Shown here one piece after another: positions 11,326 to 40,762 of a DNA stretch of 40,838 bases; within the stretch, counting starts at the first letter, position 1; each line of letters begins with the position of its first letter. The notes beneath the pieces are model-generated. The model searched no databases. It worked only from the letters and a program-made list of their open reading frames with translations, and had not been told where the DNA came from. The position numbers and the translations under genes are program-made. The DNA is taken from assembly GCA_012031415.1 (NCBI GenBank), contig JAAUTN010000017.1, positions 1 through 40,838 of the forward strand, given 5' to 3'. Source of the DNA: Leptolyngbyaceae cyanobacterium SM1_4_3. Lineage in GTDB: Bacteria > Cyanobacteriota > Cyanobacteriia > Elainellales > Elainellaceae.

Positions 11326-11395
11326 ACCTGGTCAAACCCCTAAAATCAATGACCATCATAGGTTATACCAACTCTCTTCTATGAAGTTGCGCTAA

Positions 11396-11417
11396 ACAAG
11401 GGGCTTAAGCCCCTTGT
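11396..11417. repeat. 22-bp perfect palindrome
   Basis: ACAAGGGGCTTAAGCCCCTTGT is a self-complementary 22-mer. It sits between the modA remnant and the ArsR promoter. The AGGGGCTTAAGCCCCT core is typical of dispersed cyanobacterial palindromes. Confidence 0.85.
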
Positions 11418-11520
11418 TCTAGCAGGGTTCATTCTGTGCAAGCTCAAATAGATTGGTATTAGCTTCATAAAAACGGTACTTCATAAAAACGGCATTAGAT
11501 GAAGCGAATGTGTAAACCAG

Positions 11521-15351: not shown

Positions 15352-17064
15352 CTAAACTCGCAATATTCCTGGATTAATCCGCGCCCAGGACAGTGCTTCT
15401 GCAACCAAGATCGGGTCGCCCGAATCAAGAAATTGCTGCATTCGAGCAATATGTCGCTGTTCTACCGCTTCTGCTTTAATGCGCTGATGTTCAGTCTGAG
15501 CCTGACGAGCAGCCTCCTGAAAAGCAGACTGAGCCGCTTTGATGTTAGAGAGCGCCTGTTGAAGGTGTTCCACTCCTAAAGGTGATTCCGAGGAAGTGAA
15601 AGGAACCTCAGAACTTATAGAAACAGCGTTATCACCAATACCATCATCACCATTACTGTCATTAGGAGGAAGGTTAGAGCGGGGGCGATCGCTCAAACCC
15701 TCGTCAACTATATTATTACCGCCATCCGTAGGTAATAAGCTTGAAGGACTGAGCCAGTTAGATGCGTCCTCAACGCAATCTAACTGGCTGTCCGTTTTGA
15801 TGATCGGGGGGTTTGGGAGGAATTCCACGAGATGAGCGGGATGCCATAGATCTCGATGCCGATAGAGGGAAGCACCTCCTACACCGTATTGCAACAGTGC
15901 CTGAAACCGGGCTGTTGCTCGTGAAGGTAAACTGTCTTTCTCAAGTAAGTCGGCGATCGCCTTTCTAATCCGATCCCTGGTTACAGCAGACTGTCGCTGA
16001 TTCCAGGAAGGAGACTGATCAATTGCAGTCACCAATTCGGGATCTTGGGATACAGGTTTAGAATTTGTAGCTTGATGACCAAAATGAAAGTAATGACTGT
16101 TCTCAATACATCGTGCCCATTCCTCTGCTCGATAAGTAATCTCATGCTGATGGCGGCACCACTCACTATATCCAGGCAAAGATCGAGCCGTTTCTACAAT
16201 TTCATTGACCAGAGCCTCCCCTCTTAACGGCTCTCCACCAGAGAGAATGTGATGAAAAATGTATACTCTCATAGTGATGCGACCCAGCAAACGATTGGTT
16301 TGTCCATGTCCTGTCCAGCCCATCTCAATCTCAGCATTCAAGTCATTAATAAACTTCTCAGCCTTGCCAGAGACACCAAAATGCTTTCGCTTAGACTGCT
16401 TGAGAATCTGTTTAAGTATTTTTCCATCAATGTCATTATGCTGCTGAGCCAACACCCATCGACTCATAAAAGTTTGAGAATCAGTCCAAATAGGCTGCCA
16501 GGACTCATTTAACAGATAAGAACCAATTTGTAGCGGCAATCGATGAGCATTGAATAAGCTCAAGTTTCCATCTGCCGCATAAGGTTTAGGATTTGGAAAA
16601 CTCTCCAATTGTCCAGGTTGAAGTTTAAATCCAGCATTTTCGAGCAAACAGGCAAGAGCGATCGCCAACTGCCATGAACTTTGAGCTTGCTGAAACGGGA
16701 AATAAAGATGTAACCCACCACTGTAACTAGAAGTACAGGCAATGTAGCTAGCTAGTCCTAAAGGCTCCAGCGCAGCAGCAATTCGCGAGATTGCTAGCGG
16801 ATCTCGTTTAGGGTGATAGAGACTACCTGTGTCAATATCCAGCAAACAATAGTTGGTTTCAGCCCCAAAGCGAACGCCGTAAAGGTATGCTCCTTGAGAA
16901 ATTAAGCGATCTGACAAGGGGTGACGGCTTTCAGTTTTCCATTCGACAGGCGCACCCACATCAGAATGTGCTGCCCAAATATAATCAAAGCGATGAGGAA
17001 ACAGAGATAAAAACGTATCTTCCCACTCACACACGCTCTCAAAGCGAACTGTGCTGGTTTTCAT
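15352..17064 (-). CDS. primase/polymerase-like (AEP superfamily) replication protein
   Basis: A 570-aa protein. Residues about 55-190 carry what look like the three AEP primase motifs: DxD in NYCLLDIDTGS (D76, D78), SxxxH in SSYSGGLHLYFPF (S115, H119), and a later HRLPLQIGSYLL (174-185). The region 200-330 is helical and basic (KILKQILKQSKRKHFG). A long polar linker at 420-490 precedes a C-terminal coiled coil. It diverges from the HTH gene at 18060 across a spacer full of repeats, as plasmid replication genes do. I infer a primase or initiator role; motif-level recognition only. It contains HIP1 sites, so it is not a very recent arrival. Confidence 0.6.
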   Translation of the reverse strand: MKTSTVRFESVCEWEDTFLSLFPHRFDYIWAAHSDVGAPVEWKTESRHPLSDRLISQGAYLYGVRFGAETNYCLLDIDTGSLYHPKRDPLAISRIAAALEPLGLASYIACTSSYSGGLHLYFPFQQAQSSWQLAIALACLLENAGFKLQPGQLESFPNPKPYAADGNLSLFNAHRLPLQIGSYLLNESWQPIWTDSQTFMSRWVLAQQHNDIDGKILKQILKQSKRKHFGVSGKAEKFINDLNAEIEMGWTGHGQTNRLLGRITMRVYIFHHILSGGEPLRGEALVNEIVETARSLPGYSEWCRHQHEITYRAEEWARCIENSHYFHFGHQATNSKPVSQDPELVTAIDQSPSWNQRQSAVTRDRIRKAIADLLEKDSLPSRATARFQALLQYGVGGASLYRHRDLWHPAHLVEFLPNPPIIKTDSQLDCVEDASNWLSPSSLLPTDGGNNIVDEGLSDRPRSNLPPNDSNGDDGIGDNAVSISSEVPFTSSESPLGVEHLQQALSNIKAAQSAFQEAARQAQTEHQRIKAEAVEQRHIARMQQFLDSGDPILVAEALSWARINPGILRV

Positions 17065-18059
17065 ACTTAACTACCAAACTTGCGTTTGATCATTAAACAG
17101 GCTGTTTTTTTCAGTCTTGGCTGAGTCAACACCGTCTGTTAAAACTTCTCTTAGATTTGGCAACAGTCATCAAAACCATCTGTCTGCCTGAGTTTCGGGA
17201 TCAGTTTTGTTAGCGGATTCTAGACAGAGAAATTTGACAACACTTTTTTTCGTAGCGCCATACTAGAGCAGTTGCGATCGCTCCTCAGCAACTTTGTTTC
17301 ACCACTCTAGAAAACTTGTCAATCTTGTCAACACATTTGTTGCTCTGATCTAGTCTGAATCGGCAATTTCAACTCACGTTACAACTACTAATATGCGTAA
17401 TGTACGACTAATGTTTTGAAATACTAGCCAGCCTGTCAACTTTGTCAATTCTAAATGAGTTACCAAATAGCTAAACAGTTGTTACTCGATTCGAGAATTT
17501 ACTGTCAATTTGTCAACAGTTTATCGTACATCCACAACTAGTTACTTCAGTCGAAACAAAGCCCTCTCTAGCTTTCTGGCTACGCTATATCTAGCGGTAA
17601 CTCCTAAAAGTGACAGATTTTGTTGCCCGATTCGAGAGTTGATCGTCAATTTGTCAACTCCTCATTATCTGCTAAACCCCTATACCAGATGATGTAGCTC
17701 GATTCTAGAATCTATGTCAATTTTGTCAATTGTTAAGCTGTTTAAACTTCTCGCAAATTTCCGCTAGGAATAAACTTCGTCCAAGCTCCTCTAGAGGGCT
17801 ATCTCCACATATAGCGCAGAGGATCGAGCAGGAACTGCTGCTAGTACACTCGTTTTATGTTGACCGATCCTAGAGCTAAAGTTGCATGATTCTAGTCTTA
17901 CATAACAATTAGATAAGGATGGAGGCGATCGCTCAATCTCTTTATTTAGAAGGATTAAACAATTCTCAGTAGATAAATCCTGACAGAATTAATTCTCTCC
18001 ATTGTCAATTCCAACAGACAGATTTTGATCTTCCGCGTTCAGGGTTATACTAAGCCGAT
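17065..18059. other. 995-bp AT-rich spacer, candidate origin or dual promoter
   Basis: The spacer separates the divergent primase-like and HTH genes. It holds the TGTCAA array (17234-17729) and a lone copy at 18003. TATACT occurs just before the HTH gene and could be a -10 element. I see no coding frame of substance; short frames here are chance. Small palindromes such as CTCTAGAGG near 17790 occur. Confidence 0.6.
17234..17729. repeat. iteron-like array of paired TGTCAA repeats
   Basis: Five units each hold two direct TGTCAA copies 8-9 bases apart: 17317/17326, 17434/17443, 17503/17511, 17644/17652 (first copy CGTCAA) and 17715/17724. A reverse-oriented copy lies at 17234 and a lone copy at 18003. 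In four units a GATTCNAGA- or CTCTAGA-type palindrome lies 14-15 bases before the pair, for example GATTCTAGAATC at 17701-17712. Most units are about 70 or 140 bases apart. This looks like a binding array for an initiator or regulator, possibly a replication origin. Confidence 0.8.
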
Positions 18060-20042
18060 GTGAATTCGCTTCTCTGTGAGACACCCGTGACCCAGCTTGA
18101 AAACCTTGTCCTAGACGCTACTCCTACTCTGGCAGAGCCTCTTTCTAACCCTGCATCACTCCCAGAGCAGAAGCAGGTGCTAGACTACGCTGCCAAGCTA
18201 AGGACAGACAGAGCATTCCTACATCTAGTGCTGGTTAACGTTGCTACTGGAATCAATCAGTTCAGGCTACATCTAGCAAATACACGGCTCAAAGACAGCG
18301 CCAAGACGAATCTCTATGGCGAAGACAAACTTGGCATTCTGCAAAAGCAAACCCTGTTAAGGCTTGAACGCCGCTTTCGCTCAGTCCTGAGAACTGAGGA
18401 ATTCTGGAGCAAGACCGCAAGCTGGATTTTGACTCGGCTTAACCAATGGCACCGAGAAGGGCTAATTCCCTCTGATTGCTCCGTTGCCGGAATGCTGTCG
18501 CTGGAGTCGGGTGTTAACTTAACCGAGGGAGATGAGTGGCGCGAGTCGTTAGTCATGAGTGCCTGCGCTTTTCACACGGCTAGCCAATGGTTGCGGCATC
18601 TAGACCTCTCAGGGCAAAATACAGTTGAAATTGATAGACTGCTCGGTATCCAATCTGTTGATGCCACTACCCGTGAGCCACTATTTCAAGACACAGAAGT
18701 TGAGCGAGTCGCAACAGGTTATCCAATTCTCACGGGTGCACAGGCACTCATCAACTCACAATGGGAAGATGGAGAATATCCTTACTGGCAAAAGCTAGTT
18801 GGAGAAGGATTTATCCAACATCATATTGTTCGTCAAAGTCCTTCTAGTCAGCAAATTGAGCTAGTTCCAGGCAAAGCCGCATGGGAAATCATTCAGCAGT
18901 TTGGTCCAGAGGCTGCCTATGTGTTTCTAATTTTCTCCTCCTATGCAACCGACTCCGATGAGCCTTGGGCAGAACAAATTCGGCTAAAGGGCACTGACCT
19001 GATTCGACTCTTTGGTTGGGACAAACGCACGGACATTACAATCGCCCAAAAACTCAAGAAAATCGGGCACTTGGTAGAGTTGGTCTGTAGCCTTTCTGTA
19101 TTAGTCAAAAATATCAACATTGGCGCAAAACGCTACAACGTTGAGCGCGGCGCAATGTGGATTTTGGAGGGCTTAGGCTATGCGGGTCAGTTAGCATTGA
19201 CAATGGATATCAACCAGCCTGACTCGCCAACCTACGAGGCTGGCGATCCTGATGAGTTATATATCAAAGTTCGTCCCGGAGTCTGGACTGAAAAGTTTCT
19301 CAACGCCAGTGATGATGGCAGCGCCAAAGAAGCCCTCTTTCAGTATGGCTATTTAGCAAAAAGTACATTACAAATTAACCCCTATCGGCAAAGGCTAGCC
19401 TCCAAACTTGCTATTTTCCTCACCATCATGAGTCGAATTCGAGATGATGGTCGCTATGAAGTGCAAACCTTGTTGGAACGGCTAGAGCCAAAAGAACTTT
19501 TAGAAAGTGTTCAGAAAGACCGCCTGCGCCGTGTCAAATTGATCGATCAGTGGGATAGTGCTCTACTCACGTTGAAAGAGTTGGGATGGGAAATCGACTT
19601 TGATCCGGTAACTTATCCAGAAAGTATCAGACCGTCCTGGTCATTGAGTGATGATTTTGAGTCAGGCTATCGCCCTCGAAACTGGTTAGCGACTTGGCTG
19701 AAGGCGATCGTTATCATCAAACCTTCGGTCAAAATTCAGGAAAAGCTCGGTGCTCATGTCCCTGTCTCGCTAAAACCTGAGCGAACCCACGTTCCTTCTC
19801 CTGTACTGACCAATGACGCAATTCAAGCAGCACTCGATGCAAAAGGCATGACCAAAGCTCAACTCGCCGATGCCCTCCAGGTAGACCGTTCCCTGGTCAC
19901 TCGCTGGCTAAAAGGACAGCGAACGATTCAGCCCAAACATCTGGAGCAGATCAAGATGCTCCTTGGGGATTTTGAACAGGATATGGGCACCCTATCTCAA
20001 AAAACAATGCCGTTGATTACATACCATCTCACAAATACCTGA
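18060..20042 (+). CDS. large protein with C-terminal Xre-type HTH
   Basis: A 660-aa protein of unknown family. The C-terminal residues 583-635 are a clear Xre/Cro-type helix-turn-helix: DAIQAALDAKGMTKAQLADA, then LQVDRSLVTRWLKGQRTIQP. The middle (about 240-370) contains LKGTDLIRLFGWDKRTDITI and a segment reminiscent of winged-helix replication initiators, but I cannot assign it. The start is uncertain: GTG at 18060, or GTG at 18087 with GAGAC upstream. The HTH makes it the natural candidate to bind the TGTCAA array upstream, either as an initiator or as an autoregulator of both divergent genes. Confidence 0.75.
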   Translation: MNSLLCETPVTQLENLVLDATPTLAEPLSNPASLPEQKQVLDYAAKLRTDRAFLHLVLVNVATGINQFRLHLANTRLKDSAKTNLYGEDKLGILQKQTLLRLERRFRSVLRTEEFWSKTASWILTRLNQWHREGLIPSDCSVAGMLSLESGVNLTEGDEWRESLVMSACAFHTASQWLRHLDLSGQNTVEIDRLLGIQSVDATTREPLFQDTEVERVATGYPILTGAQALINSQWEDGEYPYWQKLVGEGFIQHHIVRQSPSSQQIELVPGKAAWEIIQQFGPEAAYVFLIFSSYATDSDEPWAEQIRLKGTDLIRLFGWDKRTDITIAQKLKKIGHLVELVCSLSVLVKNINIGAKRYNVERGAMWILEGLGYAGQLALTMDINQPDSPTYEAGDPDELYIKVRPGVWTEKFLNASDDGSAKEALFQYGYLAKSTLQINPYRQRLASKLAIFLTIMSRIRDDGRYEVQTLLERLEPKELLESVQKDRLRRVKLIDQWDSALLTLKELGWEIDFDPVTYPESIRPSWSLSDDFESGYRPRNWLATWLKAIVIIKPSVKIQEKLGAHVPVSLKPERTHVPSPVLTNDAIQAALDAKGMTKAQLADALQVDRSLVTRWLKGQRTIQPKHLEQIKMLLGDFEQDMGTLSQKTMPLITYHLTNT

Positions 20043-20119
20043 AACCAGGAGAAAGGCTAAGCTTTACTCCTGGTTTCCTGTTAACTACGTAATACCAATT
20101 CAATTTGAGCTTGCTAGGT

Positions 20120-21898
20120 TTAACCAATAGAAGAGTCCCAACTGCTGAAGTTTGCAGTCAACTCGCTCCAGGTCATATTCAAGATTCCGGGTTTGGAAGA
20201 TCCATTTTCATATCCACCACTCACTCCCCAAGGATTGAATAAGGTAAATCTTTGGGTGGATGAATTATAGCCCGTCAATACATAAACGTGGTTATAGACA
20301 ACCGTAGATGCGATTTGAGTGCTTGCTTTTGAAGTAACTCCAATCATTCTTCCGTCTGCATAGGCTTTGACTAAAGCATCAAAGTTTAGAGAGTTACGAA
20401 GAGAAGAACCTTTCGCTGTAATATCCTGAATCGCATCTCCAAACCAGCCATTGTTAATTCCCTGATAGGAATTGGAGTGGTCGCTATTCCAGCGATAGAT
20501 CCAGCCGGATGAGTTGACTTGGGCATAGGCTTTTTCTGCTAAAGCAACCCACAACTCATTTGAGGCGCGACTGTAATGCCCCCCCTTGCTAGCGTAAGTA
20601 AATTGGCCTAGTGAATTAACGGGTAGATATCGGTCTACTGTAACGTAATCGGCAACTCCTTTATTGAAGAAGCGAACGGTGTATGTGTTGTCACCATTAT
20701 CAATAAACATATCTTGAATCAAACCAGGAGAACGCAGCGCTGTTGCCGCCAGACCTCCTAAGAAGTAGCAGTTACTAGCGTTACCTTGTTTGATATCCTG
20801 ATAGCTCACACCATTTTGGAACAGAGAGCCGCTTGTATAGCGATAGGTACTAGAAGCGGTGGGGCGATCGCCACCCAAAAACCACTTATTCACTAGCTTC
20901 TCCAGATGAGCGTTGCTGCTACCTGCACTCAAATTGCCTAAAGATTTACCTTGATACTGTAGGTTTGCTGCATTGCTGTTAATGACTTTGCCAGACAGCA
21001 CCTGCACATGATCATCCATCACGATGTAAGACTTATCGTTAACCAGGAAGCGTAGATCTTTAAGTTCCGTTGAGTCAACGACTCCTCCATCTTTTGCATT
21101 ACGGAAGAGTTTGATCATGTCATTCCGGTCGAGCTTGCTATCAAAGAAACCAGATCTAGCAGCAAACCGTAATCTGGCATCCTGAACCTTTCCACTAAAC
21201 CAATCTGTCAGGTCAACTTCAGTTTTGTTATCAAAGAAATTGTCCGCTTTAGTGATGTAGCCAGATTCGCTGCCTAGACCATTGCTGCCATAGCCAAAAA
21301 AGGGCGGATAGCTATCCTTATTTTCGCTGTCATAGTAACCGTTAACCCGCAATTTATTTAGATTTTGTGTTGTGCCTGTGTAGTTTACTGCTGAGGTGAT
21401 TTGATAGGAGCCGCTATAGCCTGAACCGTCTGGAGCATTGCTAGTAATTTGTTGCCCAGTATGATAGCGATCGGTGGTGGCGTAACCGTAGCCCGTATAG
21501 TAGTCACCCTTACTGTAGCTATATTTGAATGCGTAACGCTGATAGCTTTTGACTGGGGAAGCAGACAAGCTGAGTTGATATTTAACGTCACCGTTGCGCG
21601 GATAAACCCGAACATAATAAGTGCCTGCATCTAATACTTGGTTGACTGCTTCGCCTTGATTACTAGTACGAGCCGATCGGGTTGTAAATTGATTTCTAGA
21701 TTTACTAATTAACTCCAGATCTGCATTAGCATTTAAACCCCTAAGCGCAAGTTTTACGCTACTGCGTTTACCCAACTTGAAGCGATAGTAATCATTAGTG
21801 TCAAAAGATCCAACTCGCTCCTTAAAAGTTACGGGTTTAGAAGTGAGGTTAATTTGTCTAGCTTGCCTGAAAGTATTGCCAGCATAATCAATAGCCAT
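20120..21898 (-). CDS. calpain-family (C2) cysteine protease with PPC-like N-domain
   Basis: A 592-aa protein. Residues about 5-115 resemble a pre-peptidase C-terminal (PPC) beta-sandwich (GSFDTNDYYRFKLGKRSSV ... AGTYYVRVYP). A Tyr/Gly-rich middle includes an EF-hand-like stretch (LDRNDMIKLFRNAKDGGVVD, 256-275). Residues about 340-590 are the calpain core with Cys377 (QGNASNCYFLGGLAA), His537 (YNHVYVLTGY) and Asn555 (FTLFNPWG), the complete triad. No N-terminal Sec signal is visible; the leading MAIDYAGNTF is like type I exported proteins. Calcium-dependent proteolysis is inferred from the family. Confidence 0.9.
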   Translation of the reverse strand: MAIDYAGNTFRQARQINLTSKPVTFKERVGSFDTNDYYRFKLGKRSSVKLALRGLNANADLELISKSRNQFTTRSARTSNQGEAVNQVLDAGTYYVRVYPRNGDVKYQLSLSASPVKSYQRYAFKYSYSKGDYYTGYGYATTDRYHTGQQITSNAPDGSGYSGSYQITSAVNYTGTTQNLNKLRVNGYYDSENKDSYPPFFGYGSNGLGSESGYITKADNFFDNKTEVDLTDWFSGKVQDARLRFAARSGFFDSKLDRNDMIKLFRNAKDGGVVDSTELKDLRFLVNDKSYIVMDDHVQVLSGKVINSNAANLQYQGKSLGNLSAGSSNAHLEKLVNKWFLGGDRPTASSTYRYTSGSLFQNGVSYQDIKQGNASNCYFLGGLAATALRSPGLIQDMFIDNGDNTYTVRFFNKGVADYVTVDRYLPVNSLGQFTYASKGGHYSRASNELWVALAEKAYAQVNSSGWIYRWNSDHSNSYQGINNGWFGDAIQDITAKGSSLRNSLNFDALVKAYADGRMIGVTSKASTQIASTVVYNHVYVLTGYNSSTQRFTLFNPWGVSGGYENGSSKPGILNMTWSELTANFSSWDSSIG

Positions 21899-40495: not shown

Positions 40496-40586
40496 GAAAA
40501 AGAAAAACCCCGGAGGGTTAACTCCGGGGTTTTAATCAGGGTGCATCTACCATACCTCTATACCGATCGGAGGAGGGCAATCCGGA
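40496..40586. repeat. 91-bp tandem unit, copy 1
   Basis: The unit begins GAAAAAGAAAAACCCCGGAG, with GGTTAA as loop and CTCCGGGGTTTT closing a 12-bp stem, and ends ATACCGATCGG...ATCCGGA. It lies 27 bases after lgt. The stem with its T-run can act as an intrinsic terminator on either strand. Copy 2 is at 40672. Confidence 0.95.
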
Positions 40587-40671: not shown

Positions 40672-40762
40672 GAAAAAGAAAAACCCCAGAGGGTTAACTC
40701 TGGGGTTTTAATCAGGGTGCATCTACCATTCCTCTATACCGATCGGGCTAGGGCGATCCGGA
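40672..40762. repeat. 91-bp tandem unit, copy 2
   Basis: Same length as copy 1 and no insertions or deletions. Its hairpin reads AACCCCAGAG ... CTCTGGGGTT: one arm has G to A and the other C to T against copy 1, preserving the pair. The interior GTGCATCTACCAT and GATCGG-AGGGC-ATCCGGA blocks are kept. Confidence 0.95.

Follow-up and report, generated by a model that had tools for sequence, protein, structure and literature searches.

The 40.8-kb window (the whole stretch of DNA analysed here) probably carries a two-gene, iteron-based replication module, consisting of an initiator and an exchangeable primase, which belongs to a family spread over cyanobacterial plasmids and is here resident in the chromosome. 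We infer the replication activity of the module, and the papers found report no replication experiment on any member of the family. The original prediction had described initiator, primase and iterons as a plasmid-type module in a chromosomal setting, and this is supported by the predicted primase fold, a weak RctB-like match, the plasmid-borne relatives and the link between the iterons and the HTH gene; its description of the replicon as new likewise stands as far as the searched libraries and papers go. A divergent pair of ORFs around a repeat-rich spacer is present in the window sequence as it had said, with both ORFs at the lengths and positions claimed. The features of the locus are as follows.

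15352–17064, minus strand: AEP (PrimPol-type) primase gene, 570 aa; motifs, structural model, PDB match and dN/dS
17065–18059, no strand: intergenic spacer and putative origin between the divergent genes, 995 bp, 60.7% AT
17205–17224, plus strand: partial iteron-like element, TGTT...GATTCTAGA, without TGTCAA; family D6
17295–17331, plus strand: iteron 1, 37-bp composite
17412–17448, plus strand: iteron 2, 37-bp composite
17480–17516, plus strand: iteron 3, 37-bp composite
17621–17657, plus strand: iteron 4, 37-bp composite
17693–17729, plus strand: iteron 5, 37-bp composite
17855–17895, plus strand: two partial iteron-like elements, TGTTGACCGATCCTAGA and GTTGCATGATTCTAG; families D4 and D6; conserved in locus L067
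18060–20042, plus strand: HTH protein gene, proposed iteron-binding initiator, 660 aa; fold match to RctB domains 2–3 and dN/dS
19821–19952, plus strand: Xre-type HTH domain, residues 588–631; Pfam HTH_3, E 4.3e-7

The start of the HTH gene is uncertain and lies either at GTG 18060 or at the in-frame GTG 18087, where homology begins. The locus had also been said to carry HIP1 sites as its host does; this is true of the AEP gene and spacer, which together have five of the 63 sites in the 40.8 kb, but not of the 2-kb HTH gene (18060–20042), which has none.

Besides motifs I, II and IV, which had been named from the sequence, the 570-aa protein has motif III, and all four are kept in its 58 homologues. 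Both Asp residues of motif I (D76-x-D78; hhhDhD in the AEP superfamily) are found in 57 of the 58, with one gap in the alignment, while G117 and H119 of motif II (S115-x-G117-x-H119; sxH), E154 of motif III (L153-E154; hD/E) and R175-L176 of motif IV (R175-L-P-x-Q; the Rh of the PrimPol-PV1 supergroup) are each present in 58/58. The AEP core spans about residues 20–190 and is followed by a predicted helical, PriCT-like region (about 196–325), by an HTH-like segment (about 342–410) that closes with the motif LYRHRDLWHP and is invariant among homologues, and by a disordered linker (415–492) leading to C-terminal long helices. Searches with the AEP sequence against Pfam, NCBIfam, PHROGs and PDB sequences gave nothing usable, and fold and profile work succeeded instead. 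The structure-prediction check that had been proposed yielded a PrimPol fold: with the AlphaFold2 model (mean pLDDT 79.7), the top Foldseek match in the PDB was the CRISPR-associated PrimPol CAPP (E 1.5e-7), followed in order by S-2L PrimPol, LigD polymerase domains, RepB′ and Prim-PolC. Since none of the 58 members could be clearly assigned to a Pfam family (best primase match, E 0.0008), the AEP forms a distinct group that is uncatalogued there. The DUF3854 and DEXD helicase domains of CyRepA are absent from the AEP according to Pfam, which places it outside CyRepA, and its predicted helical region and HTH-like end, reminiscent of the PriCT-1 plus HTH module of RepE/RepS and PrimHYQ, gave no Pfam PriCT-1 match.

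The 660-aa partner ends in an Xre-type HTH, as had been noted, and this is the one domain that Pfam recognises in it; sequence profiles found the Xre HTH alone, with no RctB match at sequence level. The model of this protein (mean pLDDT 72.6) is weaker than that of the AEP. Its top PDB fold matches were three chains of RctB domains 2–3 (E 0.0084 to 0.13, prob 0.99 to 0.90), the best of which is itself weak, with a TM of 0.41 by target; below these, most matches were small HTH proteins aligned to the Xre domain, and a fold search against viral proteins returned matches to the HTH domain alone. The match to the central part of RctB, which initiates replication of chromosome 2 in Vibrio cholerae, is no more than suggestive.

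The spacer is close to 1 kb and AT-rich, as claimed, when compared with the window (50.9% AT). The TGTCAA pairs that had been reported in it are real, but they understate the repeat, whose full unit is a 37-bp composite with the consensus TGTTgC-N3-GATTCTAGa-N6-7-(T)GTCAA-N2-3-TGTCAA. Five full copies were observed against 0.0006 expected in the Markov-shuffled spacer; degenerate elements surround them, and no further full copy was found in the remainder of the 40.8-kb window. Between the window and L067, identity amounts to 94% in the iteron core, 69% at other iteron positions and 65% in the remaining spacer. Direct repeats thus lie next to the putative initiator gene, as in iteron theta replicons. 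A perfect DnaA box (TTWTNCACA), another feature looked for in such replicons, was not found in the spacer; some iteron origins lack one.

The composite iteron accompanies the HTH gene. It lies upstream of this gene in 19 of the 19 distinct loci with a close HTH relative (62–91% identity), in one to seven copies that always have the same orientation, but is missing from all 32 loci whose HTH relatives are distant and from all 67 AEP loci lacking a close HTH relative. By association, the iterons can be assigned to the HTH gene, and the two have diverged together: in the HTH tree, the window's nine-member subclade of close HTH proteins is fully supported (100/100) and has iterons of the type TGTT...GTCAA-TTT/TTC-TGTCAA, whereas the remaining close HTH proteins have GTC...GTCAA-CAT/CAC-TGTCAA. 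A GATTCTAG core was considered as a general iteron feature of the distant HTH relatives and rejected, as few of them carry it (L226, L224 and L084).

It had been expected that the gene pair and the repeats would recur together in relatives. The repeats do track the HTH gene, but the pairing of AEP and HTH protein is not obligate. On plasmid pLBX of L. boryana (L035), the HTH gene is divergent from a gene annotated as a CyRepA1-family plasmid replication protein, and two more HTH loci (L043/L167 and L044/L164) have a divergent CyRepA1; iterons are retained in all three. These CyRepA1 loci nest within the AEP loci at two places on the HTH tree, whose deeper branches are moderately supported. As judged from the gene arrangements, the primase slot beside the HTH–iteron unit is exchangeable and takes either AEP or CyRepA1. 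Distant HTH relatives adjoin PriCT-2 proteins (L226 and L229) or CyRepA1-type proteins (L224, with DUF3854; L227, by annotation), and three spacers of such loci contain 21–22-bp tandem repeats. Many cyanobacterial genomes have a single distant HTH relative of about 540 aa, with ~30% identity over residues 230–530, in some cases on a large single contig (e.g. G159:C1:5315584 and G171:C1:5439671).

The AEP family is also found with co-directional HTH relatives and, in 26 loci, with an unrelated divergent protein, mostly of 360–414 aa (e.g. L107, 4333–5538), from which it is separated by an array of other repeats such as CCTGTAACTCCGGCGTA. No Pfam family matches the latter protein, nor could any relationship with the HTH family be detected; on plasmids it also adjoins DUF3987 or DUF3854 proteins, and it is a candidate origin-binding protein of a third type. 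At least four direct repeats occur within 1 kb upstream in 64 of 81 AEP loci, as compared with 10 downstream and one in shuffled sequence. The AEP has at least two partner types other than the divergent HTH protein, with other repeats.

Both families are common on plasmids, the AEP being found on 66 cyanobacterial plasmid records and the HTH protein on 49. The AEP is present in 51 of the 98 relatives searched, often in multiple copies, and among 291 genomes of the class, 146 have an HTH relative (E 1e-10); the only viral AEP relative is on one IMG/VR contig. In Synechocystis PCC 6803, two AEP homologues lie side by side on plasmid pSYSG, and the Rep proteins of pSYSG and pSYSM were given as unsolved in 2024 (PMC10899382). 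For most large cyanobacterial plasmids the Rep protein is not known, and as the AEP family is found on pSYSG and on dozens of further plasmids, its members are direct Rep candidates and offer origins for vectors.

The module sits among ordinary chromosomal genes, as had been pointed out. Since the window contains lgt, thiD, ABC-transporter genes and an SRP RNA, and since dnaA of the genome is normal, we consider the setting of this copy to be chromosomal. Two Rfam NsiR1 matches, at window 40499–40552 and 40675–40728 (minus strand), lie next to lgt in this Leptolyngbyaceae genome; NsiR1 is an sRNA known mainly from heterocyst-forming cyanobacteria. The module is located between cyanophycinase-like and calpain-like genes, and occupies the same place in G001 and G002, that is, in three genomes of the genus. 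Compared with G001, dS is 1.04 for the AEP and 1.17 for the HTH gene, similar to the flanking genes (0.32–1.50), and dN/dS is 0.12 and 0.04, respectively, which points to old residence under purifying selection. Such vertical inheritance and selection would suit a maintained module, and by these rates the chromosomal copy is maintained.

The comparison with G002 gives a different picture, since dS is 0.17–0.66 for the neighbours but 0.03 for the AEP, 0.00 for the HTH gene and 0.01 for the calpain gene. Window 15602–21378, about 5.8 kb with the module, differs from G002 C284 (L066) by 2 mismatches and 3 gaps, whereas the left flank is 93.5% identical. This block may reflect either recent exchange between two sister genomes or assembly mixing, the latter being considered because the G002 record is a metagenome assembly. 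A contig chimera is unlikely, given that G002 C284 supports the left linkage and G001 C85 both sides; window 29–36 kb rests on a single assembly. A 100-bp MITE-like repeat, TATACCAA...TTGGTATTA, is present at window 11363–11462 and also at L066 6075–6172, between the AEP and cyanophycinase genes of the sister genome. No tRNA was found in the window, and neither an integration boundary nor an empty site of the module was found. Cumulative GC skew has a local minimum near the module (about 22 kb in the window; 52–54 kb in G001 C85). However, because divergent genes alone can give a local minimum, and because chromosome-wide sampling in G025 was noisy, with no origin signal separable from gene orientation, we make no claim for an origin from GC skew.

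According to the explanation that we favour, the HTH protein would bind the 37-bp iterons that are arrayed in one direction along the spacer, as their co-occurrence and co-divergence suggest, and may melt or mark the origin, as hinted by its weak RctB-like fold and by the array itself. The divergently expressed AEP, whose predicted fold is that of a PrimPol and whose active site is intact, would lay the first primer at the origin, to be extended in theta replication by the host's DnaB and polymerase III. Different primases can fill the slot, the HTH–iteron unit being found also beside CyRepA1, and PriCT-2 proteins beside distant relatives of the HTH protein. The iterons probably autoregulate both divergent promoters as well. 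It is a speculative and rather doubtful extension that an active chromosomal module would represent a second, DnaA-independent, plasmid-derived origin of the genus and that, generally, cyanobacterial plasmids consist of iteron-binding initiators freely swapping non-homologous primases (AEP, Toprim-like CyRepA1 and PriCT-2 proteins).

Alternatively, the AEP could itself be the initiator, as are ColE2 Rep or RepE, acting via its own C-terminal HTH, while the 660-aa protein would be a copy-number repressor and the repeats its operators. This division of labour is unlikely, yet we give it appreciable weight, chiefly because of the 13-kb plasmid AP018206. There, an AEP located next to ParAB and transposases (IS genes) is the only Rep candidate and has neither an HTH partner nor upstream repeats, so that the AEP may initiate alone. 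The invariance of the C-terminal HTH-like segment in the AEP would fit, as would the Xre domain, which is typical of repressors, and the minimal replicon of pRN1, composed of a repressor and an AEP Rep (PMC4234260). However, one would expect a repressor to be smaller than 660 aa with an RctB-like middle, autoregulation does not usually need several long repeats set so far apart, and the repeats remain with the HTH gene where CyRepA1 replaces the AEP.

It is improbable that the window copy is the remnant of a plasmid that integrated into the chromosome, as yet conserved but devoid of replication function, since the low dN/dS of both genes is seen at a dS near 1 against G001 and the iteron cores are conserved. 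Some relatives have indeed decayed: contig C117 of the same genome (G000; L172, 3.4 kb) bears a further HTH gene, which is broken, together with one iteron, a decayed sister module, and the relative L052 has an internal stop and no partner nearby. The chromosomal neighbours would also suit a relic, as would the absence of partition genes nearby, no ParA/ParB being found among the Pfam-scanned window proteins. Least probable by far is a regulated primase pair that acts in DNA repair or defence and has no link to replication. The repair version, raised in the original prediction, found no support; CAPP and LigD polymerase domains are among the nearest solved folds, but the plasmid distribution, the CyRepA1 swap and the iterons all argue against such a role, and ligase, Ku and CRISPR genes are absent among the Pfam-scanned window proteins.

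Neither iteron replicons nor AEP Reps are new in kind. The literature searched, which comprised open-licence PubMed Central, contained no cyanobacterial replicon that combines a large Xre-ended, possibly RctB-like protein with long composite iterons and exchangeable primases, and it is unusual for unrelated primases to be swapped next to a single iteron-binding protein. Some cyanobacteria tolerate DnaA-independent replication, and a replication module kept in the chromosome may bear on how they came to do so.

Among known systems, CyRepA1 and CyRepA2 (PMC10079941, PMC10899382) are likewise cyanobacterial plasmid replication genes, and in pLBX and two further loci it is CyRepA1 that stands divergently beside the same HTH–iteron unit; they differ in combining DUF3854 (Toprim-like) with a DEXD helicase, whereas the window protein is an AEP without helicase. 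CyRepX1/X2 of pSYSX (PMC10899382) also concern the Rep of large cyanobacterial plasmids, but membership was rejected, as the AEP and HTH profiles match nothing in the slr6031 region (L228). The AEP shares motifs I–IV, fold and mobile-element setting with the PrimPols of mobile elements, such as RepB′ of RSF1010, S-2L PrimPol and PrimPol-PV1 (PMC5862659), and differs from them in lacking a clear Pfam primase family and a helicase domain and in having a separate, putatively iteron-binding partner. RctB and the initiators of iteron plasmids resemble the HTH protein in the weak fold match to RctB domains 2–3 and in the repeats upstream of the gene. Unlike them, the HTH protein has a C-terminal Xre HTH and no sequence-level match, and their 12-mers or 17–22-bp tandem iterons contrast with 37-bp composites about 55–190 bp apart. 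The Rep of pRN1 is an AEP–helicase fusion. The pRN1 replicon resembles the present module in joining a DNA-binding protein to an AEP Rep (orf56/orf904) and differs from it in having a stem-loop origin (PMC4234260).
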